Shown one piece after another: positions 4,221 to 28,100 of a stretch of 46,137 bases of DNA. Location of the stretch: the IMG/VR virus record IMGVR_UViG_3300042294_003123, positions 1 through 46,137 of that record. The stretch is one strand, 5' to 3'. This DNA is from a virus. Positions within the stretch are counted from its first letter, which is position 1; each line of letters opens with the position of its first letter. The notes beneath the pieces are model-generated. The model saw nothing but the letters and a program-made list of their open reading frames with translations, was not told the DNA's origin and searched no databases. Position numbers and translations under genes: made by a program.

Positions 4221-5006
4221 ATGAGAAAAAATATTAGTTTTATCCCTCTAAACAACGACATTAACAAATTATCCGCTTTCATTCCTTCATTAGATGCAAG
4301 TTGGAGAGCTAATCAACGTATTAAATCAAAACCAGTAATGGTTGAATCCCTAGATGCTGTAAGAGAGTTTCAACGTCAAGGTTGGAATATTGCTGGGGCT
4401 TATGAAAAACGAGATAAAAATCGTAAAGTTGGTTCCCACTTTATTAAAATGGAACATCCTGATTTTGTTATTAAAAATTCTAAAGGTCAAGCCGAGGCTG
4501 TTGCCACTATGAATATTTCTAACTCTTGTACAGGAGCAAAACCTATGGAACTTGACTTAGGTGCTTATCGTCAGGTTTGTTCAAATGGTTTGATTGCTCA
4601 TACCTCTTATAGTAATGAAAAAGTACCTCATACTGAAAAAGGTCAATATTCATTACAAGAAATCCTTTGTGATTTAGGTATTCGTACACAAGGTGTTATG
4701 GAAGAGTTTAATAAACTAAAAGAAAAACAATTGTCACCTAAAGAAATGATGAATTTAGCTACACAAGCAGCAGATGCTCGTTTTGGTAAAGGTCATCGTA
4801 TTGATGTTTCTCAATTACTTAATGTAGTAAGAGAGGAAGATAAAGGTGATGATGTTTGGACTGTGTTTAATCGTATTCAAGAAAACCTAACTCAACCTCA
4901 TCGTATTATTGATAATATGGGAAATATGATGAGTGGTGTATCTGATATTAATGAAGATACTCGTATTAATAAAGAGTTGTTTGAATTAGCACACGCTTAC
5001 GCTTAA
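4221..5006 (+). CDS. DUF932 family protein, copy 1
   Basis: A 261-residue protein with the hallmark of DUF932 (the phage/plasmid-like TIGR03299 group): a segment near residues 113-127, Gly-Ala-Tyr-Arg-Gln-Val-Cys-Ser-Asn-Gly-Leu, followed by a helical region. The family is widespread on phages and plasmids, and its biochemical role is not established. It is a clear paralogue of the gene at 6208: both share the R-x-V/M-C-x-N-G-L motif and a downstream ARFG/VRFG segment. It is transcribed from its own leaderless-type promoter and closed by a terminator that overlaps the next promoter. Confidence 0.75.
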   Translation: MRKNISFIPLNNDINKLSAFIPSLDASWRANQRIKSKPVMVESLDAVREFQRQGWNIAGAYEKRDKNRKVGSHFIKMEHPDFVIKNSKGQAEAVATMNISNSCTGAKPMELDLGAYRQVCSNGLIAHTSYSNEKVPHTEKGQYSLQEILCDLGIRTQGVMEEFNKLKEKQLSPKEMMNLATQAADARFGKGHRIDVSQLLNVVREEDKGDDVWTVFNRIQENLTQPHRIIDNMGNMMSGVSDINEDTRINKELFELAHAYA

Positions 5007-6207: not shown

Positions 6208-7008
6208 ATGTTAAACATTCAAAATTCCGAGTTCATTTCAAAAGAACAAATCCGTCAACAAGCTCCTTCAATTTTTACTGCTACCAGTGCTCCTGGAACT
6301 AGTGAAAAGTATGCTCACATTCCTACCGATAAAATTATCGATGATATGGCTGCCCTTGGTTGGGGTGTTGTAGATGCTAAACAAGTTCGTGCTCGTAAAG
6401 GAATTGGTTTCCAAAAGCACTTGGTTGTATTCCGTAATAACGATATTCAAATCACTGCCGAAGATGGTGATAACGTTTTCCCACAAATCCTATTGACTAA
6501 CAGTCATGATGGTAAAAATGCGTTTACCTTTACTGCTGGTTTGTTCCGTATGGTTTGTGAAAATGGTTTGGTTGTGTCAAGCCGTGAGTTTGAAAATATG
6601 AAGATTCGTCATATGGGTTATTCATTTGATGAATTGCAAAACACCATTAAATCAATGGTTGAAAAATTACCTTTGACTGTTGAATCACTTAATAAATTCC
6701 GTCAAGTAGAATTAGGTCAAGAACAAGCTCTTGATTTTGCTAAAAAAGCTCTTGAAGTTCGTTTTGGCGATGATGTTGAAAATATTAAAGTTGATTTGAA
6801 TGATTTACTTACTGCTACTCGTCCAGCAGATAAAGGTTCTGATTTGTGGTCAATTTACAATGTAGTTCAAGAAAAATTGGTTCATGGTATGTTTAATTAC
6901 ACCTATGGTTCCAAAGTTCGTAAAGCTCGTAAAATCAAAAACTTCCAACAAGATTTGGTTTTGAACGAAAGATTGTATGATTTGGCTCTTGAGTACGTTC
7001 CCGCATAA
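6208..7008 (+). CDS. DUF932 family protein, copy 2
   Basis: A 266-residue paralogue of the 4221 gene. The signature Gly-Leu-Phe-Arg-Met-Val-Cys-Glu-Asn-Gly-Leu-Val-Val is at residues 111-123, followed by a long helical C-terminal half. The two copies diverge strongly outside the signature, so the duplication is old or they were acquired separately. The function of the family is unknown. It has its own promoter and long A-rich leader, and its stop codon sits in the loop of an 11-bp hairpin. Confidence 0.75.
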   Translation: MLNIQNSEFISKEQIRQQAPSIFTATSAPGTSEKYAHIPTDKIIDDMAALGWGVVDAKQVRARKGIGFQKHLVVFRNNDIQITAEDGDNVFPQILLTNSHDGKNAFTFTAGLFRMVCENGLVVSSREFENMKIRHMGYSFDELQNTIKSMVEKLPLTVESLNKFRQVELGQEQALDFAKKALEVRFGDDVENIKVDLNDLLTATRPADKGSDLWSIYNVVQEKLVHGMFNYTYGSKVRKARKIKNFQQDLVLNERLYDLALEYVPA

Positions 7009-7258: not shown

Positions 7259-7344
7259 GCTGTTGTGGTGGAATAGGTAGACACGCAAGACTTAAAATCT
7301 TGTGGACCGTAAGGTTCGTGCCGGTTCGATTCCGGCCAGCAGTA
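7259..7344 (+). tRNA. tRNA-Leu(TAA)
   Basis: Class II tRNA with acceptor GCTGTTG/CAGCAGT, GGTAGACACG D-loop, anticodon loop CTTAAAA, long variable arm and T-loop TTCGATT. CCA is not encoded. Confidence 0.93.
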
Positions 7345-7361
7345 CAAAAATTAAAAAAACA

Positions 7362-7372
7362 TATATTTATAA
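7362..7372 (+). promoter_or_regulatory. Late-type TATTTATAA element
   Basis: TATATTTATAA ends 3 bases before the lipoprotein ATG, with no TTGG box at the proper distance. Similar elements precede several late genes. Confidence 0.5.
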
Positions 7373-7375
7373 CAA

Positions 7376-7534
7376 ATGAAAAAAGTATTATTTATTCTAA
7401 GTTTGGTTGTGTTCGCAGCTTCTTGCTCAAATTCAACCTCCACTTCAGGTGTTGACACCTTGAAATGTGCCGATTCTACGTGTGGTGATTCAACCAAAGT
7501 AGTAAAAGACACTACAGGTAAGGACAGCCTTTAA
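7376..7534 (+). CDS. Small predicted lipoprotein (52 aa)
   Basis: A 52-codon frame encoding a clear lipoprotein signal: MKK, a hydrophobic stretch, then the lipobox AASC with the lipidated Cys at residue 17. The mature part is only about 36 residues, Ser/Thr/Asp-rich with two more Cys. Such tiny phage lipoproteins can block superinfection at the outer membrane (as known for T5 Llp), but that role is inferred. It lies between tRNA-Leu and tRNA-Thr with its own late-type promoter element. Confidence 0.7.
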   Translation: MKKVLFILSLVVFAASCSNSTSTSGVDTLKCADSTCGDSTKVVKDTTGKDSL

Positions 7535-7546
7535 TTGTCCATAAAA

Positions 7547-7619
7547 GCCTCCTTAGCTCAGTTGGTAGAGCTTCTCACTTGTAATGAGAGGGTCGGCGGT
7601 TCGAGTCCGTCAGGCGGCT
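7547..7619 (+). tRNA. tRNA-Thr(TGT)
   Basis: Acceptor GCCTCCT/AGGCGGC with one mismatch, anticodon stem TCTCA/TGAGA with loop CTTGTAA, T-loop TTCGAGT. Confidence 0.92.
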
Positions 7620-7666
7620 CAAATGTACTTAAAAGCATACCGTAAGATCTGCTTAAAGTCTTTTTT

Positions 7667-7739
7667 GCGAGAGTAGCTCAGTTGGTAGAGCATAACCTTG
7701 CCAAGGTTAGGGTCGCCAGTTCGAACCTGGTTTCTCGCT
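7667..7739 (+). tRNA. tRNA-Gly(GCC)
   Basis: Acceptor GCGAGAG/TTCTCGC, anticodon stem TAACC/GGTTA with loop TTGCCAA, T-loop TTCGAAC. Confidence 0.93.
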
Positions 7740-7744
7740 CAAAT

Positions 7745-7797
7745 GTAGTCTTTAGTTAGCTCCCCCGACCTAACATAACTTGCTATCTGAAGGCTAC
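7745..7797 (+). ncRNA. Structured RNA candidate R1 between two tRNA-Gly genes
   Basis: GTAGTCTT (7745-7752) pairs with AAGGCTAC (7790-7797), 8 bp with one G-U, enclosing GTTAG/CTAAC (7755-7759 with 7770-7774). It fills the gap between the two tRNA-Gly genes. There is no tRNA anticodon arm or T-loop. It may only be a spacer hairpin that aids processing. Confidence 0.4.
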
Positions 7798-7802
7798 TCC
7801 AA

Positions 7803-7875
7803 GCAGGTGTAGTATAATGGCTTATTATGCAACACTTCCAATGTTGAGATGACAGTTCGATTCTGTCTACCTGCT
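7803..7875 (+). tRNA. tRNA-Gly(TCC)
   Basis: Acceptor GCAGGTG/TACCTGC, anticodon stem CAACA/TGTTG with loop CTTCCAA, T-loop TTCGATT. Confidence 0.93.
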
Positions 7876-7897
7876 CTAAAAAAAATTTAAATATAGT

Positions 7898-7927
7898 TTG
7901 GCATCTTAAGATCCCTTTCATATATTT
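7898..7927 (+). promoter_or_regulatory. Promoter inside the tRNA island
   Basis: TTGG 7898-7901, TATATT 7921-7926, spacer 19. It precedes a 31-codon ORF, a terminator and a boxA-like site. Confidence 0.75.
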
Positions 7928-7951
7928 ATCACATATTAAAACACATAAAAA

Positions 7952-8047
7952 ATGAAACATTGTCAGTCATATCAGTTTAGTCTTACAGCGTCGTGGATGA
8001 ATCGTCCCGAGGTTAAAGATATTAGACTGAAAGGGCTTATGATGTGA
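7952..8047 (+). CDS. 31-residue leader-like ORF
   Basis: A short frame (MKHCQSYQF... ending KGLMM) that starts 25 bases past the -7 box of the 7898 promoter in an A-rich context. It is followed by an intrinsic terminator at 8080-8107, then a boxA-like site and tRNA genes. The order promoter, short ORF, terminator, downstream genes is that of an attenuator leader. There is no run of one codon type that would show which signal is sensed. It could equally be a small effector peptide. That it is translated is an inference. Confidence 0.4.
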   Translation: MKHCQSYQFSLTASWMNRPEVKDIRLKGLMM

Positions 8048-8079
8048 TGTTTTTTTAAAACATATTGAAACACAGAATA

Positions 8080-8107
8080 AGCCCGGTTCACAAGATCGGG
8101 CTCTTTT
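8080..8107 (+). terminator. Intrinsic terminator in the tRNA leader
   Basis: AGCCCGG (8080-8086) pairs with TCGGGCT (8096-8102), a 7-bp stem with one G-U pair, followed by CTTTT. It sits just before a boxA-like site. Confidence 0.75.
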
Positions 8108-8108
8108 A

Positions 8109-8129
8109 GTTCTTTGACATACGAGAAAC
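8109..8129 (+). promoter_or_regulatory. boxA-like antitermination site 1
   Basis: Begins GTTCTTTGACATA, similar to bacterial boxA of rRNA leaders (TGCTCTTTAACA in E. coli). All 21 bases recur exactly at 9663-9683, again just upstream of a tRNA. Confidence 0.55.
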
Positions 8130-8133
8130 CAAT

Positions 8134-8206
8134 GCGGCAGTAGCAAAGATGGTCAATGCACTGGACTGAAAATCCAGCCATGTAGGTTCGAGTCCTACCT
8201 TCCGCA
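8134..8206 (+). tRNA. tRNA-Phe(GAA)
   Basis: Acceptor GCGGCAG/CTTCCGC with one mismatch, anticodon stem CTGGA/TCCAG with loop CTGAAAA, T-loop TTCGAGT. Confidence 0.92.
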
Positions 8207-8215
8207 CAATTACAC

Positions 8216-8291
8216 AGCGTAATAGAGGAGTCAGGTTTATCTCATCTGCTTTGGGAGCAGAGGCACGCCGGTTCGAATCCGGCTTACGCTA
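8216..8291 (+). tRNA. tRNA-Pro(TGG)
   Basis: Perfect acceptor AGCGTAA/TTACGCT, anticodon stem TCTGC/GCAGA with loop TTTGGGA, T-stem GCCGG/CCGGC. Confidence 0.93.
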
Positions 8292-8326
8292 CAAAAAAAT
8301 CGTTAAATGTGAAATGCGCAATCACA

Positions 8327-8353
8327 GCAGGTTAAGCGATATCCTGCATTTTT
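8327..8353 (+). terminator. Internal terminator-like hairpin with alternative fold
   Basis: GCAGG (8327-8331) pairs with CCTGC (8343-8347), followed by five T running directly into tRNA-Lys. The upstream ATCGTTAA (about 8300-8307) can instead pair with TTAAGCGAT (8332-8340), enclosing TGTGA/TCACA and opening this hairpin. Confidence 0.55.
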
Positions 8354-8427
8354 GACTTCGTAGCTCAATTGGTTAGAGCACCTCACTTTTAATGAGGGGG
8401 TTTCGAGTTCGAGTCTCGACGGGGTCA
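8354..8427 (+). tRNA. tRNA-Lys(TTT)
   Basis: Acceptor GACTTCG/CGGGGTC (with G-U pairs), anticodon stem CCTCA/TGAGG with loop CTTTTAA, T-stem TCGAG/CTCGA. Confidence 0.93.
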
Positions 8428-8433
8428 CAATTT

Positions 8434-8509
8434 CTTTCCTTCGCTTAGTTGGTTTTAAAGCGTCTCTTTTACACGGAGAAGATCGTTGGTTCGAATCCAG
8501 CAGGAAAGA
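8434..8509 (+). tRNA. tRNA-Val(TAC)
   Basis: Perfect acceptor CTTTCCT/AGGAAAG, anticodon stem TCTCT/GGAGA with loop TTTACAC, T-loop TTCGAAT. Confidence 0.88.
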
Positions 8510-8519
8510 CAAAATAAAT

Positions 8520-8601
8520 GCCGTAGCGCCGGAGTGGGAGAGTCGGGACGGATTGTAAACCCGTTGCTTAAGCTGAGTAGGTTCGAATCCTACCTACGGC
8601 A
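8520..8601 (+). tRNA. tRNA-Tyr(GTA)
   Basis: Acceptor GCCGTAG/CTACGGC, anticodon loop TTGTAAA, long variable arm as in bacterial class II tRNA-Tyr, T-loop TTCGAAT. Confidence 0.92.
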
Positions 8602-8608
8602 CTAAAAT

Positions 8609-8682
8609 GGAGATATAGCTCAATTGGTTAGAGCGCCTGCCTGATGCGCATGAGGTTATAGGTTCGAGTCCTATTTTCTCCA
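8609..8682 (+). tRNA. tRNA-Ile(GAT)
   Basis: Acceptor GGAGATA/TTTCTCC, anticodon loop CTGATGC with one mismatch in the anticodon stem, T-loop TTCGAGT. Confidence 0.88.
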
Positions 8683-8691
8683 CAATTAAAT

Positions 8692-8764
8692 GGTGTATGT
8701 AACTCAGAGGAAGAGTACTCGCTTGTGACGCGAGAAGTCGGGATTTCGAAACTCCTCATACACC
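8692..8764 (+). tRNA. tRNA-His(GTG)
   Basis: Acceptor GTGTATG/CATACAC with an extra encoded G at -1 facing C73, the identity mark of tRNA-His; anticodon stem CTCGC/GCGAG with loop TTGTGAC. Confidence 0.9.
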
Positions 8765-8770
8765 CTAAAA

Positions 8771-8854
8771 GGAAAATGACCCTTGATGGTGATAGGGCTT
8801 GCCTGCTAAGCAATGTGTACCTTCGGGTATTTGGTTCGATTCCAACTTTTTCCG
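8771..8854 (+). tRNA. tRNA-Ser(GCT)
   Basis: Class II tRNA: acceptor GGAAAAT/TTTTTCC with one mismatch, anticodon loop CTGCTAA, variable arm with a CTTCGG loop, discriminator G. Confidence 0.9.
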
Positions 8855-8866
8855 CTATGTAAAAAC

Positions 8867-8875
8867 TATTTATAA
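8867..8875 (+). promoter_or_regulatory. Late-type TATTTATAA element
   Basis: TATTTATAA ends 7 bases before the ATG at 8883; there is no matching -33 box. Confidence 0.45.
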
Positions 8876-8882
8876 CAAAACT

Positions 8883-9335
8883 ATGGAATTCAGAACATTA
8901 ACAAACCGGAAAAAAATTGAATTGGTTGACTACGTTAGAGCGTATTTAAACGACAATCCTCATGTTGAGGTATTAGTTGGGTGTGACTCGCAAGGTTATT
9001 GGGATAAAACAATATATGCAACTGTAGTCGCATTATATAAACCGGGTAATGGTGCTCATGTTTTATACCATAAAGAAGTATTACCTGTTGAAAGAGTTCG
9101 TCAAGTACGTTTGATGAATGAAGTTTGGAAATCAATTGAAGTAGCTGAATTATTAAAAAATGCAGGTTTACCTCAAGTTAAATATATTGATATAGACATT
9201 AACCCTGATAAAAGATATAAATCAAACGAAGTTTTAAGAGCAGCAGTTGGTTTAGTTGAAGGGATGGGTTATAAAGTTAGATACAAAACATTAGGTGCAA
9301 TGGCAACATTTGCTGCTGATACGTTAGTAAAATAA
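8883..9335 (+). CDS. RNase H-fold protein of the YkuK/DUF458 type
   Basis: A 150-residue protein. The first beta-strand VEVLVGCDSQG places Asp35 where the first catalytic Asp of an RNase H fold belongs; Glu80, Asp103/105 (YIDIDINPDKRYKSN) and Asp146 could complete the site. This pattern matches the YkuK/DUF458 group, described as predicted RNase H-like nucleases without a firm function. The start at 8883 is taken because the frame upstream runs through tRNA-Ser. Its position between tRNA-Ser and tRNA-Arg suggests a role in RNA metabolism, for example processing or turnover of the island's RNAs (inference). Confidence 0.75.
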   Translation: MEFRTLTNRKKIELVDYVRAYLNDNPHVEVLVGCDSQGYWDKTIYATVVALYKPGNGAHVLYHKEVLPVERVRQVRLMNEVWKSIEVAELLKNAGLPQVKYIDIDINPDKRYKSNEVLRAAVGLVEGMGYKVRYKTLGAMATFAADTLVK

Positions 9336-9341
9336 CTAATC

Positions 9342-9415
9342 AGTTCCTTAGCTCAATGGATTAGAGCACTTCACTACGAATGAAGGGGTTATAGGTTCGA
9401 ATCCTATAGGAACTA
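9342..9415 (+). tRNA. tRNA-Arg(ACG)
   Basis: Perfect acceptor AGTTCCT/AGGAACT, anticodon stem CTTCA/TGAAG with loop CTACGAA. A34 would need host TadA to become inosine. Confidence 0.93.
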
Positions 9416-9421
9416 CTAAAA

Positions 9422-9491
9422 GTTCAGGTTGGTTTAGGAAGCCGGGTGGTCTGCAAAACTACTGAAGTAGGTTCGATTCCTACCTTGAACT
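9422..9491 (+). tRNA. tRNA-Cys(GCA)
   Basis: Acceptor GTTCAGG/CTTGAAC, anticodon stem GTGGT/ACTAC with loop CTGCAAA, T-loop TTCGATT; short D-arm. Confidence 0.9.
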
Positions 9492-9498
9492 CAAATAC

Positions 9499-9572
9499 GC
9501 GAGTGTGGTGAAATGGTATCATAATGGTCTCCAAAACTATTGTTGAGGGTTCGAATCCTTCCACTCGTGCCA
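9499..9572 (+). tRNA. tRNA-Trp(CCA), 3' CCA encoded
   Basis: Acceptor GCGAGTG/CACTCGT, anticodon loop CTCCAAA, discriminator G followed by encoded CCA (9570-9572). Confidence 0.92.
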
Positions 9573-9575
9573 ATT

Positions 9576-9592
9576 AGAATAATTCTAAATGA
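9576..9592. repeat. Palindromic repeat copy 3 (AGAATAATTCTAAATGA)
   Basis: Third copy of the AGAATNATTCTAAATGA element, 19 bases upstream of the promoter at 9612. Copies 1 and 2 are at 3263 and 6103. Confidence 0.65.
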
Positions 9593-9611
9593 ATTTTTCT
9601 TTTAGAAATGA

Positions 9612-9641
9612 TTGGAATTGCAAAATATTGTTTGTATATTC
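9612..9641 (+). promoter_or_regulatory. Promoter inside the tRNA island
   Basis: TTGG 9612-9615, TATATT 9635-9640, spacer 19. It is followed directly by a boxA-like site and tRNA-Leu, as in a stable-RNA operon. Confidence 0.8.
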
Positions 9642-9662
9642 ACATCATAGTAAGAATTAAAA

Positions 9663-9683
9663 GTTCTTTGACATACGAGAAAC
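9663..9683 (+). promoter_or_regulatory. boxA-like antitermination site 2
   Basis: Exact 21-base copy of the site at 8109-8129, placed 23 bases after the -7 box and 4 bases before tRNA-Leu(TAG). Confidence 0.6.
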
Positions 9684-9687
9684 AAAT

Positions 9688-9769
9688 ACCCTGGTGGTGG
9701 AATTGGTAGACACGCCGGTCTTAGAAACCGGTGCTTAATCGCTTGCGAGTTCGAGTCTCGCCCTCGGTA
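9688..9769 (+). tRNA. tRNA-Leu(TAG), weak acceptor stem
   Basis: Class II tRNA with GGTAGACACG D-loop, anticodon stem CCGGT/ACCGG with loop CTTAGAA, and T-loop TTCGAGT. The acceptor ACCCTGG/CCTCGGT has two central mismatches (C-C and T-T). Confidence 0.85.
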
Positions 9770-9772
9770 CAA

Positions 9773-9968
9773 ATGAAACATTCCTTACATAGGACGGATT
9801 AGCACCGTTGAAAGACAATCTTCGACTTTTGGGAGTAGCTACTCAATAAGATACATGGCTCGAAGTGTTATGTGATGGACCCTGCTCTGTGTGGCCACAC
9901 AACAGGTGAACAGTAAACTATGTTCAGTAAAATCTAAAACTACGGTGAGCGTAGAAGGATAGTTTCAT
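9773..9968 (+). ncRNA. Structured RNA candidate R2 (about 196 nt)
   Basis: Fills the gap between tRNA-Leu(TAG), ending 9769, and tRNA-Asn, starting 9972. The ends pair: ATGAAAC (9773-9779) with GTTTCAT (9962-9968), then after a 2x2 internal loop TCCTT (9782-9786) with AAGGA (9955-9959). Inside are ACGG/CCGT, CTTCGA/TCGAAG enclosing GAGTAGCTACTC, a hairpin around GTGTGGCCACAC closed by CCTG/CAGG, GAACA/TGTTC, and CTACG/CGTAG. There is no reading frame and no tRNA signature. T4 also carries stable non-tRNA RNAs (C and D) in its tRNA cluster; any sharing of function with those is unknown. Confidence 0.65.
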
Positions 9969-9971
9969 AAT

Positions 9972-10043
9972 GTCTTGGTAGCTCAGTGGTAGAGCAAGCG
10001 GCTGTTAACCGCTAGGTCGTAGGTTCGAAACCTTCCCAGGACG
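9972..10043 (+). tRNA. tRNA-Asn(GTT)
   Basis: Acceptor GTCTTGG/CCAGGAC, anticodon stem AGCGG/CCGCT with loop CTGTTAA, T-loop TTCGAAA, discriminator G. Confidence 0.93.
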
Positions 10044-10049
10044 CTAAAT

Positions 10050-10121
10050 GGCCCGTTCATCTATCGGTTAGGATACCAGGTTTTCAACCTGTAAAGACGA
10101 GTTCGATTCTCGTACGGGCTA
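10050..10121 (+). tRNA. tRNA-Glu(TTC)
   Basis: Acceptor GGCCCGT/ACGGGCT, anticodon loop TTTTCAA, T-stem ACGAG/CTCGT. Confidence 0.92.
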
Positions 10122-10130
10122 CAAATAAAT

Positions 10131-10204
10131 TGCGGGGAAGATGAGCTGGTGCACACAGGGGTCTCATAAGCCTCTCTAGGTGGATTCGATTTCCACCCCC
10201 GCAA
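10131..10204 (+). tRNA. tRNA with CAT anticodon (Met or Ile2)
   Basis: Perfect acceptor TGCGGGG/CCCCGCA, anticodon loop CTCATAA, T-stem GTGGA/TCCAC. The acceptor resembles initiator tRNA, but the anticodon stem lacks the three G-C pairs of initiators and the D-arm is irregular. It could be initiator-derived, elongator Met or lysidine-dependent Ile. Confidence 0.8.
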
Positions 10205-10214
10205 CTAAATAAAT

Positions 10215-10285
10215 TACCCTCTCGTCTAACGGCAGGACAAGTGGTTTTGGACCACTGAATTGGAGTTCGAATCTCTGGGGGGTAA
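10215..10285 (+). tRNA. tRNA-Gln(TTG)
   Basis: Acceptor TACCCTC/GGGGGTA, anticodon stem AGTGG/CCACT with loop TTTTGGA, T-loop TTCGAAT. Confidence 0.92.
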
Positions 10286-10292
10286 CTAAAAT

Positions 10293-10365
10293 GGGCTGTT
10301 GGTATAGTTGGCTAACACGGTAGCTTTGCAAGCTTCAATCCCCAGTTCAAATCTGGGACGGTCCA
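10293..10365 (+). tRNA. tRNA-Ala(TGC)
   Basis: Acceptor GGGCTGT/ACGGTCC, anticodon loop TTTGCAA, T-stem CCCAG/CTGGG. Confidence 0.92.
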
Positions 10366-10373
10366 CAAAATTT

Positions 10374-10448
10374 GGTCTATTAGTGTAGTGGTTAACACGC
10401 CTCACTGTCTATGAGGTAGCCTCGGTTCGAATCCGTGATAGACCGCCA
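10374..10448 (+). tRNA. tRNA-Asp(GTC), 3' CCA encoded
   Basis: Perfect acceptor GGTCTAT/ATAGACC, anticodon stem CCTCA/TGAGG with loop CTGTCTA, discriminator G followed by encoded CCA. Confidence 0.94.
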
Positions 10449-10575
10449 AAAGAAAAAGTAGTGAAGCTGTAATTAGGAAGTAGAGTGTATTAATTACCGA
10501 AAAAGGGTTTATAGTAGGTAGGCGTCACTTATTGCACCTAATCAGAAACCTTGAAAGACCCGAAACTTTTTCTTT
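10449..10575 (+). ncRNA. Structured RNA candidate R3 (about 127 nt)
   Basis: Starts at the base after the CCA of tRNA-Asp and ends 4 bases before tRNA-Ser. The ends form a perfect 11-bp stem, AAAGAAAAAGT (10449-10459) with ACTTTTTCTTT (10565-10575). Inside, GTAATTA pairs with TAATTAC (10469-10475 with 10491-10497), GGTTT with AAACC (10506-10510 with 10546-10550), and TAGGT with ACCTA (10515-10519 with 10536-10540). There is no coding frame and no T-loop. Flanking tRNA maturation would release it with near-precise ends. In size and setting it resembles the T4 stable RNAs C and D. Confidence 0.7.
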
Positions 10576-10579
10576 ATTC

Positions 10580-10666
10580 GGAAGTTTGGCAGAGCGGTCG
10601 ATCGCGCTAGTCTTGAAAACTAGAGATGTTGAAAGGCATCCGGGGGTTCGAATCCCTCAACTTCCG
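10580..10666 (+). tRNA. tRNA-Ser(TGA)
   Basis: Class II tRNA: perfect acceptor GGAAGTT/AACTTCC, anticodon stem CTAGT/ACTAG with loop CTTGAAA, long variable arm, discriminator G. Confidence 0.93.
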
Positions 10667-10774
10667 CACCTTAAAACCGATTCGGGTTCGTGAACAAAGG
10701 AGGCCTGCGACTTGAAATATAGACAAATCACGTTAAATCTCCTCACACTAGGTGGTATCGGTGACCTAGTATTT
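10667..10774 (+). ncRNA. Structured RNA candidate R4 (about 108 nt)
   Basis: The gap between tRNA-Ser(TGA) and tRNA-Arg(TCT). AGGAG (10698-10702) can pair with CTCCT (10739-10743), and ACTAGGT (10747-10753) pairs perfectly with ACCTAGT (10764-10770). ACCGAT near 10676 could pair with ATCGGT near 10757 as an alternative. No closing stem as clear as in R2 or R3, so this is the weaker case. Confidence 0.4.
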
Positions 10775-10846
10775 GGTTCCATAGTTAAATGGATATAACA
10801 AGACTCTTCTAAAGTCTGGTTCGTGGTTCGATTCCACGTGGAACTA
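10775..10846 (+). tRNA. tRNA-Arg(TCT)
   Basis: Acceptor GGTTCCA/TGGAACT, anticodon stem AGACT/AGTCT with loop CTTCTAA, T-stem CGTGG/CCACG. Confidence 0.93.
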
Positions 10847-10853
10847 CAAAAAA

Positions 10854-10920
10854 GGATACTTACAGCAATTTTTAACTATCAAATTTGTAACTTGACTCAG
10901 TAAAAACAGTATCCTGTAAC
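10854..10920 (+). ncRNA. Tandem hairpin RNA A
   Basis: GGATACT (10854-10860) pairs with AGTATCC (10908-10914). The 5' strand is followed by TACAGCAATTTTTAAC and the 3' strand by TGTAAC. TTACAG next to the 5' strand is complementary to CTGTAA after the 3' strand, so a pseudoknot is possible. Elements B and C share the layout. It lies upstream of the Ro-like gene. Confidence 0.6.
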
Positions 10921-10927
10921 TTATTAA

Positions 10928-10990
10928 GGGCTTCTAACAGCAAATAAAAAATACTCAGACTGCAAATCCGATTAAAAAAACAGAAGCCCG
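10928..10990 (+). ncRNA. Tandem hairpin RNA B
   Basis: GGGCTTCT (10928-10935) pairs with AGAAGCCC (10982-10989), 8 bp with stem bases unlike A and C, followed by AACAGCAAAT and, before the 3' strand, an A-run; then GTAAA. It is the same architecture with a different stem, which argues for a conserved RNA structure. Confidence 0.6.
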
Positions 10991-11018
10991 TAAATTTTAA
11001 AAAAATTTTCAATATAAC

Positions 11019-11048
11019 TTGGTTATTTTGAAAAAAGTTATTATATTT
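11019..11048 (+). promoter_or_regulatory. Promoter between hairpin RNAs B and C
   Basis: TTGG 11019-11022, TATATT 11042-11047, spacer 19. It would transcribe hairpins C and D and the Ro-like gene as one unit. Confidence 0.7.
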
Positions 11049-11069
11049 ATAATATTAAGAAATTAAAAA

Positions 11070-11128
11070 GGATTCAGACAGCAATTTTCAACAATTTCAT
11101 TAGGACGAAAAAAACGGAATCCTGTAAC
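11070..11128 (+). ncRNA. Tandem hairpin RNA C
   Basis: GGATTC (11070-11075) pairs with GAATCC (11117-11122). ACAGCAATTTTCAAC after the 5' strand matches element A nearly base for base, as does TGTAACTTCTTGAGGG after the 3' strand. Confidence 0.6.
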
Positions 11129-11131
11129 TTC

Positions 11132-11255
11132 TTGAGGGAATGAGTACATCCAGCAATTATTATTACTTATACATAATAATTCGAAACTAACACCTCAGTC
11201 ATCGACTCCCCTAGCCGATGCCGTACTCAGTAGATCCCCTCAAACATTGGCTAGG
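11132..11255 (+). ncRNA. Four-helix RNA D upstream of the Ro-like gene
   Basis: TTGAGGG (11132-11138) pairs with CCCTCAA (11237-11243), TGAGTAC (11141-11147) with GTACTCA (11223-11229), AATTATTAT (11155-11163) with ATAATAATT (11173-11181), and CATCG (11200-11204) with CGATG (11216-11220). CCTAGCC in the last loop is complementary to GGCTAGG at 11249-11255, giving a pseudoknot or a switch. It contains CAGCAA at the position seen in hairpins A to C. It may be a larger relative of them or a 5' regulatory element of the gene 49 bases downstream. Confidence 0.65.
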
Positions 11256-11303
11256 TGCGGGTCATGACAGAGGCTTAACTTAAAATAAAAAAAAATAAAA
11301 GAT

Positions 11304-12680
11304 ATGAGTAATTTAATTAACGCAATGAGACAAAAAGATGCCTTAACTGCTAACGGCGCTTTGACTAACTCTACTTCGTTGAATGCGGTTGTAGACATGT
11401 TCTTTTTAGCAGGTGCTTCTCGTAGAATGTCAGAACAAGAAATCATTAATGTGTTTGTAAAAGCATATAATGAAGATCCTAACTTGGCTGTAAAATGTCT
11501 GTTTTGGGCTCGTGACGTTAGAGGTGGTGCTGGTGAACGTAGGTTCTTCCAAATCATCATGAAATATATTAGCGAAAACTACCCATCTGTTTTTGAATTT
11601 AATATTCGTTTAACTCCAGAATATGGTTATTGGAAAGATGTTTTTAATGTCTTAAATCCAAACAGAACTGTTTTAGATTGGATGTCAGAACAATTGAATG
11701 ATTCTAATAGTGGATTGATTGCTAAGTGGTTTCCACGTAGAGGTGTTTGGTTCTCTTCAATGCATAAACATTTGGGAATGACTCCAAAACAATTTCGTAA
11801 AATGATTGTGGAAAAAACTAAAGTTGTTGAAACTTCTATGTGTAATAAAGAATGGGATGCTATCGAGTATTCTAAAATTCCTTCACAAGCTTTTCAAAAA
11901 TACAAAAGAGCATTTTCAAGAAATGATGAATCTAGGTTCAAAGATTTTATAAGTGCTGTTGTAAAAGGTGAAGCTAAAGTTAATTCAGGAACTTTATTTC
12001 CATATCAATTATATCAATCTTACATTAGAGGACTAGATAAAAATTCAGTGCTTGCACAATGGATTAATCTACCTGATTATGTAGGTGAGGGATCATTTTT
12101 ACCAGTTTGTGATGTTTCTGGTTCAATGAATGGTTTACCAATGGAAATATCTGTTTCTTTAGGTGTATACTTGTCAGAAAGAAATAAATCAGCATTTAAA
12201 GATGCCTTTATTACCTTCTCAGAATCTCCAAGATTACAATATTTAAAAGGTAATGTAGTTGAAAGATTTAGTCAATTAGCTAATGCTGATTGGGGTATGA
12301 GTACTAATTTACAATCTGTATTTGATCTAGTATTAAATAAAGCAATTGAAAATAGATTAGCTCAATCCGATTTGCCAGAAACTATTTTGATTATTTCTGA
12401 TATGGAATTTAATTATGCTTGTGGAAATAAAACTAATTTTGAAGTAATTCAAGATAAGTTTGAAGCCGCTGGTTATAAAATGCCAAAATTAGCTTTTTGG
12501 AATGTAAATGGAAGAGAAGGTAACGTACCAGTATCCGCAAATACTAAAGATGTTGCCTTAATTTCAGGAGCTTCACCATCAATCGTTAAAAACGTTTTGT
12601 CAGGTAAAGATTTTACTCCAAAAGGTATCATGTTGGAAACTCTATTGAGTGAAAGATATGAAAAAATTATGGCTCTTTAA
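11304..12680 (+). CDS. Ro60-like protein (DUF2828, TROVE-like plus vWA)
   Basis: A 458-residue protein with an N-terminal helical-repeat region (about 1-250) that includes the ARDVRGGAGERR segment typical of DUF2828, and a C-terminal von Willebrand A domain with an intact metal site: Asp270-Val-Ser272-Gly-Ser274, Thr334 and Asp366. This order is that of Ro60/TROVE proteins, ring-shaped RNA chaperones that bind misfolded RNA ends and Y RNAs. Placement at the end of a tRNA and ncRNA island, behind four structured RNAs, fits an RNA-handling role (inference). The leader is A-rich without a Shine-Dalgarno. The stop codon lies in the loop of a terminator just before tRNA-Met. Confidence 0.8.
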   Translation: MSNLINAMRQKDALTANGALTNSTSLNAVVDMFFLAGASRRMSEQEIINVFVKAYNEDPNLAVKCLFWARDVRGGAGERRFFQIIMKYISENYPSVFEFNIRLTPEYGYWKDVFNVLNPNRTVLDWMSEQLNDSNSGLIAKWFPRRGVWFSSMHKHLGMTPKQFRKMIVEKTKVVETSMCNKEWDAIEYSKIPSQAFQKYKRAFSRNDESRFKDFISAVVKGEAKVNSGTLFPYQLYQSYIRGLDKNSVLAQWINLPDYVGEGSFLPVCDVSGSMNGLPMEISVSLGVYLSERNKSAFKDAFITFSESPRLQYLKGNVVERFSQLANADWGMSTNLQSVFDLVLNKAIENRLAQSDLPETILIISDMEFNYACGNKTNFEVIQDKFEAAGYKMPKLAFWNVNGREGNVPVSANTKDVALISGASPSIVKNVLSGKDFTPKGIMLETLLSERYEKIMAL

Positions 12681-12694: not shown

Positions 12695-12768
12695 GGACCC
12701 TTAGCTCAGTTGGTTAGAGCAGCTCACTCATAATGAGAAGGTCACAGGTTCAAGTCCTGTATGGTCCA
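12695..12768 (+). tRNA. tRNA-Met(CAT), elongator-like
   Basis: Acceptor GGACCCT/ATGGTCC with one mismatch, anticodon stem GCTCA/TGAGA with loop CTCATAA, T-loop TTCAAGT. The AGAGC...CTCATAATGAG context resembles elongator tRNA-Met. Confidence 0.9.
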
Positions 12769-12774
12769 CAAAAG

Positions 12775-13181: not shown

Positions 13182-13260
13182 ATATATTATTTTTTAGATT
13201 TTTTTTATATGTATAAATAAAGTTGTTTCAATTAGTTTTTTATTGTTAAAATTAAAAAGT

Positions 13261-14388
13261 ATGAAACATTTATCTAAAGAAGAGCTACTAAGTAGACTTG
13301 AAGCAATTAATAAAAGCAATGCTATTATTTACTTTGATTTAACAGGAGTCATTTTAGGGGTAAACGATATCTTTTTAAAAGCAATGGGCTATGAAAAAGA
13401 TGAACATAAAGAACTTATAGGTAAACATCATAGCTTATTTGTTTGTGAAGATTATGCAAGATCTTTGGAATATGAAAAGTTTTGGGATATCTTAAGAAGT
13501 GGAAAACATTATGAAGGTGAGTTTGAAAGAAGAAAAAAAGATGGTAGTCTTATAAATTTACAAGCAACCTACAATCCTATTTATGATGAATCAGGTACGC
13601 TTACTAAAATAATGAAAATTGCTACTGATATTACTGAAATAGTTAATAGTAAAAATCAAATGGAAGCTGTAAATAGAAGCTCAGCAACTATAAGATTCGA
13701 TATTAATGGTTTTATTTTAGATGCTAATTCTATTTTTTTAGAAACAATGGGGTATAAAGCAAATGAGAAAAACCAAGTTATAGGCAAACATCATAGTATC
13801 TTTATATCTTATGATTATTCAAAATCTGATGAATATTTAAAATTTTGGACGGATTTAAAGACTGGTAAAATATTTAATGGAATATTTGAACGAAAAAAAG
13901 TAGATGGTTCAGCTGTATACTTACAAGCAAGTTATAATCCTATATTTGACAGTAAAGGAAATGTTACTAGTATAATTAAAATTGCTATTGATGTTACTGA
14001 AGCTACTAAAAATAAAAAAGCAATTAAAGAACTTACAGATAATTTACAGATTGAATTACATAATTCTGAAAAACTTAAAAATGCTCTTGAAATAGAAAGA
14101 AATGCTGCAGTTGAAGATTTAGATGCTACATTAAAAAAGAGTCAAAACGAGTTAATTAAAACAATTGTAAAGTCTGCTCTATTTGTAATTATGAGTGTAG
14201 GATTTATTACAACAATCATGTATTCTTTTGCTATTCTTTCCGATAAAGATACTCAAATAATTGGTTCTACTTGGAGTAATATGTTTAGTGTATTATTAAC
14301 AAATGCTTTTTCAATAGTTGGTACAATTATGGGTATTAAGTATGCTACACAAGACAATGATAAAACAAAAACAACAAAACAACTATAA
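13261..14388 (+). CDS. Membrane protein with two PAS domains
   Basis: A 375-residue protein starting at ATG 13261 (a TTG at 13243 is less likely). Residues about 12-130 and 135-250 are two homologous PAS domains, each with a GKHHS segment, an FERRKKDGS-type hairpin, a YNPI(Y/F)D strand and a final I-A-(T/I)-D-(I/V)-T-E linker. A coiled coil follows to about 300, then two transmembrane helices (about 300-322 and 333-358) and a short basic tail. PAS domains sense ligands, redox or light and usually drive a kinase or methyl-accepting output; no output domain is present. It lies next to the holin and endolysin genes, so a lysis-timing sensor is possible (inference). Confidence 0.8.
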   Translation: MKHLSKEELLSRLEAINKSNAIIYFDLTGVILGVNDIFLKAMGYEKDEHKELIGKHHSLFVCEDYARSLEYEKFWDILRSGKHYEGEFERRKKDGSLINLQATYNPIYDESGTLTKIMKIATDITEIVNSKNQMEAVNRSSATIRFDINGFILDANSIFLETMGYKANEKNQVIGKHHSIFISYDYSKSDEYLKFWTDLKTGKIFNGIFERKKVDGSAVYLQASYNPIFDSKGNVTSIIKIAIDVTEATKNKKAIKELTDNLQIELHNSEKLKNALEIERNAAVEDLDATLKKSQNELIKTIVKSALFVIMSVGFITTIMYSFAILSDKDTQIIGSTWSNMFSVLLTNAFSIVGTIMGIKYATQDNDKTKTTKQL

Positions 14389-25193: not shown

Positions 25194-28100
25194 TGCCAAC
25201 ACTTTTAAGACGTATAGATCCCAACACCCTAAATTATCAGGTAATATCTCCTGAAGATACTTCCTTATTAGGTTCTTTAGAAGTTACTAGTTTATTTGAT
25301 CCAACAAGAGGTCAAGTTGAATATTATATTTACGACATTGATAAGAACTTAATTTATGGTAACGAAAATTATAATTTATGGACTGTTACTGAAGATCCTT
25401 CTTTAGCAGAAACTACCTTACAAACTAATTTAACTGGTTCTAATTTAGATTATATCCCTTCTCCTCAAACGGCTAAAATTTCTACACTTAATATTGATCC
25501 TATTAAAGATGCTGAATTAAGTGGATTTAATTTTGGAAAAATACAAACAATATATAACTTTCTTACTTATGAATTAAATTCATCCCCAATAAACCAATTC
25601 TTCATAAGTAATATATCTTCAGATAGAACTGAAATTAGATTAAAAACTAATTTTATTAGTGATGAATCTTTAACTATTGGTTATGAATTTTTTAAAGATA
25701 AAATAATAAATGATCCTACATTTGATGAATTTTATTTAAATTTTGGAGGTAATCAATTAGTTTTAGCAGTTAATATTTTATTAGATAATACACAGTCTCC
25801 TAATTCAATATTAATTAAACTTTATGAACCCTTACCACAAGATATTAATACAAAAAATGAATGTTATATAGTTACTAAAAATGGAGAGTCAGTTGCATAT
25901 GAAATTTCATTTGAAGAAAATATAATATTTGTTGACCCAACAATCCCAATCCAGGGTCCTAATTTTAATTTAGATTTATTAGATAAAATTAACCCTTCTA
26001 CAAATTATCAATCATACAAAGATATTACATCAACCCCATTATCTGGTTCTTACTACCAGTTATTAACTAATTTAACTTCTTCAGGAATTTATATTAATGT
26101 TGATTATTCTGATTATTCAAACTTTGTTCAATTTTCATCAGCAGCACAACGTTTAGACAACTTTAGACAAAAATTAATTACTATATCATCTTCTCAAGCT
26201 GAAATAAATATAATATATTCTGAAATAACAGGTTCAACATCAGAATCATTTGCTGTATCCTCAAGTAAAACTATTTTAGAAAACACAATTCAAAATACTA
26301 TTACAAGTTTTGATGATTATGAATATTATTTATATTATGAGTCAAGTTCAACATCGTGGCCTAAATCAAATAATATAATACCTTATGTACTATACGATGT
26401 TAATAGTGTTACTGGTAATAATTGGTACAATAGTCAATCAACTGTAGCTCAAACATATGATGCTTATAATCAAAACTATATATATTATTCAATTCCTGAT
26501 TATATAGTTAATGATTCTCAAAATGATAATTATATATTATTTTCTGAATTAGTATCTCAATTATTTGATAATATTTGGGTATATGAAAAATCTATAACTG
26601 ATAAATTAGATTCTAATCCTAATTTAAATATAGGTGTATCACCTGCTTTAGTAGCAGATACAATTCAAAGTTTAGGTATAAAATTATATGGTAGTAATTT
26701 TACTACCCAAAATATATATAATTCATTATTAGGATATTCTCCAAGTGGTAGTGTTTTATTACCTACTGGAAGTAAATATGTTACAACGTATATAACAGCA
26801 TCTGTATCCCAATCAGTTGTTCCTACTATTGATGATTATCATAAATTAACTTATAAGAAAATTTACCATAGTTTACCTTATTTATTAAAAAGAAAAGGAA
26901 CAGTTCAAGGTTTACGTTCTTTAATTAATATATTTGGTGTTGCTCCTACTTTATTAAGAATTAATGAATTTGGTGGAAAAGATAAAAATGTAAATACATG
27001 GGATAATTGGCAAGATGAATTTAACTATTCTTTTTATACTAGTGGCTCAGCTTATATTACCTCATCTTTTGTTTTAAATTCTACTTGGAGTGCTACTAAT
27101 AATAGACCAGCTGCTGTAGAGTTTAGATTTAAAACAGATGGTTTACCACAAAATACCGCTAGTGTAGTTTCTCAAAGTTTATGGTTAACAGATGGTGGGG
27201 TTAATTTACGTTTAAGATATACAGGTTCAGGATATACAAGTGGATCTTATTCAGGATCCATAATTAGCCCTTATTATCAATATGCTCTATTAGAATTTAT
27301 TCCAGATACTAGTACTCCAACAGTTTCTGCAAGTGTTTATTTACCTTTTTATAACGAAGGATGGTGGTCTGTATTAATAAACAGTTCAAGTAATGGATTT
27401 GAATTGTTTGCTAAAAATAAAAATTATGAAGGAAATGATGGAAATACATTATCCTTTCAAGCATCTTCTTCTATAACTGGTAATAATGTTTGGGCAACAA
27501 GTACTAAATCTATTTTTGCTTCATCCTCATATAAGATATTTAGTGGTTCTTTACAAGAAATTAGATATTATACACAAGCTTTAGGTGAAAATGCCTTTGA
27601 TGCTTATGTGATGAATCCTTATTCAATTGAAGAAGATGAAAATTTAGCATTTAGGGCTTCTTTGGGTGGAGAATTATATACATCATCTGTTTCAATTCAT
27701 CCTAAGATAACTGGTAGTTGGGTTACAACTTCTTCTTTTGTAGGAACAAATAACTTTTTTACTAGTTCAGGAGGAAATTGGGCAGTAAATAGAGAAGTTA
27801 TTTATTTTGATCAATTTGCAGTAGGAATTCAAAACCCAGTATCTGATAAAATTACTAATCAACAAATATTATTACCATATACTAGTAATGTATTAAATAA
27901 TATCCCTAATAATAAAGTATTATCTGCTTTTAATACTATTCAACAAAGTTATCCTATAAGTCAAAGTTATACTAATGATGTAAATTATTTAGAAGCAGCT
28001 TTTTCTCCTCAAAATGAAATTAATGAAGATATAAATTCTTCAATAGGTTTCTTTAATATAGGTGAATTAATAGGTGACCCAAGACAATTATCTTCCTCAG

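Follow-up and report, generated by a model that had tools for sequence, protein, structure and literature searches.

Three short RNAs (A, B and C) and a larger one (D) lie between an island of tRNA genes and the gene of a Ro-like protein in a viral DNA of 46,137 nucleotides (nt), IMG/VR record IMGVR_UViG_3300042294_003123, positions 1 to 46,137, the whole of which is called here the window. A, B, C and presumably D are probably small partners of this protein, which we name "mini-Y" RNAs, each made of an end that the protein would recognize and of an insert that is a part of a tRNA and could plausibly act as bait. They belong to a family with a modular anatomy, a covarying end stem and a recurrent genomic linkage to Ro-like genes. 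A sequence-only reading of this DNA had proposed Ro-associated, Y-RNA-like RNAs, and this core is strongly supported by the recurring linkage, by the Ro60 fold of the protein and by sister RNAs of the YrlA type; two findings go further than that reading, namely the mimicry of anticodon arms, which it missed, and the enclosure of permuted or whole tRNAs by the same end module in sister RNAs.

Each of the three smaller RNAs, with lengths of 55–63 nt, is closed by a helix between its two ends. RNA A (10853–10915, on the plus strand, as are B, C, D with their hairpins and helices, the Ro-like gene and the flanking tRNA genes) has a terminal stem of 8 base pairs (bp), AGGATACT (10853–10860) with AGTATCCT (10908–10915), ACAGCAA at 10862–10868 and the tail GTAACTT; RNA B (10928–10989) has another of 8 bp, GGGCTTCT (10928–10935) with AGAAGCCC (10982–10989), ACAGCAA at 10937–10943 and the tail GTAA; and RNA C (11069–11123) has one of 7 bp, AGGATTC (11069–11075) with GAATCCT (11117–11123), and ACAGCAA at 11078–11084. 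The layout of 5′ stem strand, ACAGCAA and 3′ stem strand had been claimed for A–C, together with (T/C)GTAA tails after the stems and a common TGTAACTT(A/C)TT(A/G)AGGG 3′ of A and C, and all of this is indeed in place. For a larger fourth RNA the earlier claim holds as to its CAGCAA (11151–11156), and not as to its end at 11255: in RNA D (11133–11275), CCAGCAA (11150–11156) lies inside the stem TGAGTAC (11141–11147)/GTACTCA (11223–11229), and because two further helices (11193–11202/11264–11273 and 11210–11220/11245–11255) could pair with it in a pseudoknot topology, the 3′ limit is placed at about 11275, some 28 nt upstream of the start codon of the Ro-like gene. RNA D is conserved and strongly folded (folding-energy z −3.7); all its pairs are kept in six distinct sequences, yet with a single double change, that is, with almost no covariation. 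Taken singly, the three smaller RNAs have folding energies that do not stand out (z −1.0 for A, −2.2 for B and −0.8 for C), and therefore the evidence for them is comparative. An H-type pseudoknot between TTACA and TGTAA in RNA A was also considered and rejected, as it appears by eye to be sterically unlikely and is not kept in B, C or the relatives. In an Rfam scan of the window, no family reached its gathering score for A, B or C.

The four elements are all kept in seven IMG/VR relatives that were found through the neighbouring protein (88–100% identity), several of which have different, still complementary stems, and an eighth relative (L198, 82%), found by RNA pattern, also holds the array. 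Three more distant relatives (46–53%) gave no clear copy by simple scan, and in one of them, L009, there is a weak covariance-model match just upstream of the gene. A first pattern composed only of RNA letters (AAGG, ACAGCAA and CCTGTAA with gaps), which used no protein information, matched 69 viral stretches, about 30 of them with true complementary stems of different sequence. The existence of the stem can be examined in two ways that are not circular: with further patterns included, the stem layout is found at 408 of the 2319 CAGCAA sites in the fetched loci and, once their 3′ flanks have been shuffled, at no more than 46 of them, and the outer stem is present in 74 of 94 distinct sites fetched solely by ACAGCAA and the anticodon-like string GACTTTTAATC (4.8% in shuffles). 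In an alignment of 72 members each stem pair changes on both sides, a covariation that is partly circular because the outer stem was used to select the members. The covariance model built from this alignment (R1), whose E-values are rough, gives 60.9 bits to RNA A, itself part of the training set. Across members the end module consists of a helix of 6–9 bp between the 5′ and 3′ ends, an invariant ACAGCAA inside the 5′ strand, and (U)G(UAA) after the 3′ strand. Homologues thus exist outside the genome of the window, with more than 100 members in other phages and in three bacterial genomes, whose stems differ and stay paired. A nucleotide search with the A–D region against isolated phages matched the tRNA-Arg alone, and the library of papers that was searched yielded none describing this ACAGCAA RNA family, which is widespread and apparently undescribed.

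What the end module encloses in A and B is a hairpin resembling an anticodon arm. The hairpin of RNA A, TCAAA-TTTGTAA-CTTGA (10879–10895), has the loop of a tRNA-Thr (UGU) with 4 of 5 bp; that of RNA B, TCAGA-CTGCAAA-TCCGA (10955–10971), has the loop of a tRNA-Cys (GCA), with 4 of 5 bp and an A·C mismatch; and that of RNA C, TTTC-ATTAGGAC-GAAA (11095–11110), is weaker, with a UAG-like loop of 8 nt, in the place of which the relatives L004, L006 and L007 have UGG loops with 5 bp. The loop of RNA A is UGU (Thr) in the window and UUU (Lys) in close relatives, position 32 changing too. In their stem letters the window arms do not agree with the tRNAs that the phage itself encodes, so they are not recent copies of these. 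The identity with tRNA anticodon loops goes beyond chance: when 124 members without the Lys search string were compared with 199 anticodon-loop 7-mers from 1081 tRNAs predicted by ARAGORN, using dinucleotide shuffles as the null, 43 had the loop of a real tRNA with four or more of the five closing pairs formed (shuffle mean 7.8, maximum 14), and in 17 all five pairs were formed (1.1 in shuffles). Lys, Thr, Cys, Pro, Ile, Ser, Leu, Phe, Asn, Tyr, Trp and others are found among the loop identities. A member in L196 (2236–2300) has the loop CTTCAAT with the anticodon UCA, which reads UGA, and this suggests either that UGA is a sense codon for the phage or its host, or that the RNA mimics the selenocysteine tRNA.

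Other members enclose larger parts of a tRNA within the same end module. In 21 strict cases it holds a circularly permuted tRNA, with the T arm before the D arm and opened at the anticodon arm (for example in L080, L186, Enterococcus phage EFGrKN (L250) and Mycobacterium phage JoeDirt (L252)); in 5 cases the D and T arms are in normal order, and in many the T arm is alone by the strict test. The permuted arrangement is that of YrlA, in which a basal stem holding Rsr is joined to a D/T/acceptor-like domain, the length range of YrlA-type Y RNAs being 90–150 nt (PMC8394870). The Rfam family of YrlA (RF02553) scores 30–48 bits on the sister RNAs, below its gathering score of 69, and had no match in A, B or C in the Rfam search. 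As in the pair formed by YrlA and Rsr/Ro60, A–C have a stem that joins the 5′ and 3′ ends, a gene beside that of a Ro-type protein, and tRNA mimicry, and their sister RNAs hold the permuted-tRNA module within the same ACAGCAA end module. Unlike YrlA, A–C do not exceed 63 nt, their insert is the anticodon arm, which YrlA is without, and not the D, T or acceptor arms, and the partner gene is DUF2828/DUF7788 and not TROVE by Pfam. Since the basal stem of YrlA holds Rsr and the module is shared, the end module would most simply be read as a Ro-binding end, and A, B and C as mini-Y RNAs carrying the one part of the tRNA that YrlA lacks. Two further arrangements were observed: in L107 (8488–8578), L114 (9622–9721), L194 (10045–10143), L152 (888–1002) and L137 (905–1002), whole tRNA bodies bear ACAGCAA between an acceptor-like stem and the D arm, and look intermediate between tRNAs and mini-RNAs; and in one phage (L186, 1–680) overlapping permuted tRNA-like units and mini-RNAs form a single array.

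The adjacent gene (11304–12680) codes for a protein of 458 amino acids with Pfam domains DUF2828 and DUF7788, and belongs to phrog_850, annotated in PHROGs as "RNA-binding protein". It had been described as DUF2828/TROVE-like with a von Willebrand factor A (vWA) metal site; DUF2828 and the intact site stand, and so does the likeness to Ro60 at the level of the fold, while Pfam TROVE (PF05731) has no match in it. Helical repeats are followed by a vWA domain in which the metal site is intact (D270-x-S272-x-S274, T334, D366), these five residues being invariant in 17 sequences. A PDB sequence search with the single protein found no Ro, and a profile search gave weak TROVE matches; the comparison of folds was decisive: the three best matches of the AlphaFold model (mean pLDDT 75.7) among solved structures are Ro60 of Thermus phage phiLo (E 6.9e-9), Rsr of Deinococcus (6.2e-6) and human Ro60 (1.3e-5). 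With the Ro60/Rsr structures compared (PDB 2NVO; 9L5Y, from Thermus phage phiLo; 9NFA) the protein shares a ring of helical repeats and a vWA fold with an intact metal site; it differs from them in a sequence profile that has no Pfam TROVE match and very weak TROVE in the PDB profile search. The name "Ro-like" is thus justified by the fold and not by the Pfam family. Members of phrog_850 are present in 682 phage records, including Listeria, Felix O1-like, Campylobacter, Vibrio, Enterococcus and Mycobacterium phages.

The linkage of the RNAs to this gene, which the sequence-only reading had put forward as something to be looked for beside DUF2828 genes, recurs in very divergent phages and in three bacterial genomes. 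In dozens of loci fetched by RNA letters alone a Ro-like gene is found at 24–60% protein identity. The fetched stretch contains Ro for 110 of the 174 dereplicated members, and all 110 are on the strand of Ro, with 59 lying no more than 500 nt upstream of it and 14 no more than 500 nt downstream; IMG/VR contigs are frequently fragments, and among 50 other RNA-bearing contigs Ro is found elsewhere on the contig in 26, as against none of 50 control contigs with a pattern match without the structure. All three bacterial genomes with a structured match hold a Ro-like gene with an RNA copy just upstream, and in one of them, Enterococcus sp. BWR-S5, one pair of RNAs lies just upstream of Ro and a second pair is on another contig. 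One to several copies are found beside Ro in isolated phages of Listeria, Campylobacter, Salmonella (Felix O1 type), Staphylococcus, Enterococcus, Bacillus and Mycobacterium; in Mycobacterium, Staphylococcus and Felix O1-like phages there are members downstream of Ro, and many members sit in tRNA arrays. Among 299 Bacillota genomes, there were only 6 TROVE-type Ro loci, too few to conclude from, and R1 had no match within some 1.5 kilobases (kb) of any of them.

These positions bear directly on two other explanations. It had been suggested as an alternative that the RNAs are a tandem riboswitch, or some other cis-acting leader, that controls the Ro-like gene, and the many members within 500 nt upstream on the same strand, as well as the end of D some 28 nt before the start codon, are what such a leader would show; yet members also occur downstream of Ro, in tRNA arrays far from it and, in Enterococcus, on another contig, and the inserts differ between phages and contain pieces of tRNA. 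The riboswitch in the Ro leader was consequently rejected, and cis control in general seems very unlikely. It could also be supposed that the RNAs are functionless, decaying tRNA genes or fragments left by recombination in the tRNA island, given the full or partial tRNA bodies inside the same end module and the many members in tRNA arrays. However, the end module is kept, with its ACAGCAA invariant, even though both strands of its stem vary in sequence, and Ro stays linked to the RNAs in phages that have diverged widely; decay would not preserve either of these, and is therefore the least credible of the explanations considered.

A further alternative is that another protein binds these RNAs and that Ro is merely a genomic neighbour, as would be the case if they followed the example of the Class I RNAs of Dictyostelium, whose partner is the RRM protein Rnp1A (PMC7919456). 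Class I RNAs measure 42–65 nt, have their two ends paired in a stem of about 6 bp, and have been reported as unique to the social amoebae (PMC7919456). The corresponding Rfam family (RF01414) is the best one for A (27.1 bits), B (17.7) and C (22.7); the best relatives of A–C reach 30–31 bits, and the whole range, of 16–31, is below the gathering score of 41.5. Every RF01414 match in the Rfam searches made here falls on a member of the ACAGCAA family. A–C share the size range and the end-joining stem of Class I RNAs, and the core ACAGCAA is in all of them; by the Rfam consensus, Class I RNA has the 11-nt CCUUACAGCAA beside the 5′ strand, an AAG start and a CUGU end, where RNA A has CUUACAGCAA and CCUGU. 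Binding by Rnp1A and the DUSE promoter, which also mark Class I RNAs, are eukaryotic features. Membership of Class I is not claimed here, and the likeness could be due to homology or to convergence. The resemblance lends something to the idea of another binding protein, as do the RNA-bearing contigs in which no Ro is seen; against it, Ro recurs across phages of unrelated hosts and always on the same strand (Ro being the sole neighbour that was checked systematically), and the end module is common to Y-RNA-like RNAs whose known partner is Ro. We regard this explanation as improbable, and binding of the mini-Y RNAs to the Ro-like protein as likely.

If we accept such binding, the end module, common to all members, would most likely be recognized by the adjacent Ro-like ring protein, and the insert would be an exchangeable piece of tRNA: the anticodon arm alone (A, B and more weakly C, and many elsewhere), the anticodon and T arms, the entire body of a tRNA, or, as in YrlA, a permuted tRNA that has no anticodon arm. 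The resulting Ro-RNA particle could display these parts, and the displayed anticodon arms may act as bait or competitive ligands for the enzymes that attack or process anticodon loops during infection, in such a way that the tRNA pool of the phage would be protected. The bait role is put forward tentatively, as a possibility with which the context agrees: the RNAs lie by tRNA islands, in Listeria phage LP-048 the Ro gene is followed downstream by genes of the RtcB-like and RNA ligase kinds, and YrlA has been suggested as a competitive inhibitor of an anticodon nuclease despite having no anticodon arm (PMC7790460). As with the phage tRNAs that evade anticodon nucleases (host PrrC, AriB of PARIS), it is the anticodon loop that would be contested and an RNA derived from tRNA that would be the answer; unlike those tRNAs, the arm of the mini-Y RNAs is set in a frame that is not that of a tRNA, with an end module linked to Ro, and presumably has no role in translation. 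A broader reading, which we hold to be less likely than not, would be that many phages and some bacteria have a class of small RNAs that dock on a Ro-like ring protein by their shared stem and ACAGCAA end and show exchangeable tRNA parts, mainly the anticodon arms of many isoacceptors, as decoys against host enzymes that cut or modify anticodon loops, that changes of the opposing enzyme account for the different anticodons displayed by close relatives, and that the Class I RNAs of dictyostelids may belong to this class as its eukaryotic branch.

The serious rival to the bait is a tether or gate similar to RYPER, in which the RNAs bound to Ro would direct a ribonuclease, for instance PNPase, or control its access, and aid the decay of host or damaged RNA instead of distracting anticodon nucleases, the tRNA-like part being the contact surface. 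Rsr of Deinococcus and its Y RNA do tether PNPase (PMC8394870; PMC7790460), and the sister RNAs have the tRNA-like module of YrlA; however, the contact of YrlA with PNPase uses the D/T/acceptor-like module, which is absent from A, B and C, and a tether leaves unexplained the true anticodon loops with their changing anticodons. We consider it unlikely, although well worth holding in view.

Several observations weigh against the proposal of Ro-bound RNAs that display tRNA parts as bait. The arms in the window are imperfect, with a mismatch in A and in B and an 8-nt loop in C, and in about two thirds of the members without the Lys string no loop is identical to that of a tRNA, so mimicry of a tRNA need not hold for every insert; the broad spectrum of anticodons argues against bait for one single nuclease. 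No member was found within about 3.5 kb of Ro in Stenotrophomonas DLP_6, Pectobacterium CBB, Vibrio nt-1 and Staphylococcus PG-2021_22, and some RNA-bearing contigs of more than 90 kb have no detected Ro. In Listeria phage CKA15, for which a most abundant unannotated transcript region has been reported (PMC12282133), that transcript was considered as evidence of expression of the family and rejected, as the region 26,236–26,727 is ROOL-like (90.1 bits, gathering score 99.1), and the family members lie at 25,289–25,553.

Two other facts concern this same phage. The ROOL-like region corresponds to L258 3196–3747 (record 26195–26746, minus strand), and the Ro-like protein CKA15_055 (L258 696–2216) was detected in purified CKA15 particles with 20 peptides and 57% coverage (PMC12282133), so that, speculatively, the complex might travel with the virion.

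As to the surroundings of the RNAs in the window, the island found by ARAGORN comprises 23 tRNAs (7259–10847), the last of which, tRNA-Arg(tct), ends at 10847, 5 nt 5′ of RNA A, and a tRNA-Met (12695–12769) lies directly 3′ of the Ro-like gene. Within the tRNA array there is a freshwater-1 RNA (RF02979) at 9871–9932 (72.9 bits, gathering score 72), which is also in the relative L007 (1919–1980); a tRNA-like match missed by ARAGORN (RF00005, 30.6 bits, 8772–8853), which overlaps the start of the open reading frame at 8799; and this open reading frame itself (8799–9335), which is RNaseH_like (PF04308). Two gaps between tRNAs (10449–10579 and 10668–10774) contain long inverted repeats (AGAAAAAGT...ACTTTTTCTTT; ACTAGGT...ACCTAGT) and look like further structured RNAs. 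Farther away are two DUF932 genes (4221–5006 and 6208–7008) and the gene of a PAS-domain protein (13243–14388).

The RNA partners of the phrog_850 proteins are largely unannotated, and with a common end module to search by, they can be found and the protein can be tested. Through the anticodon arms that they carry, the mini-Y RNAs would connect Ro particles, directly and in a falsifiable way, with the conflict of phages and bacteria over tRNAs, and the likeness to the Class I RNAs, thought to be unique to the social amoebae, would bear on the origin of these as well.

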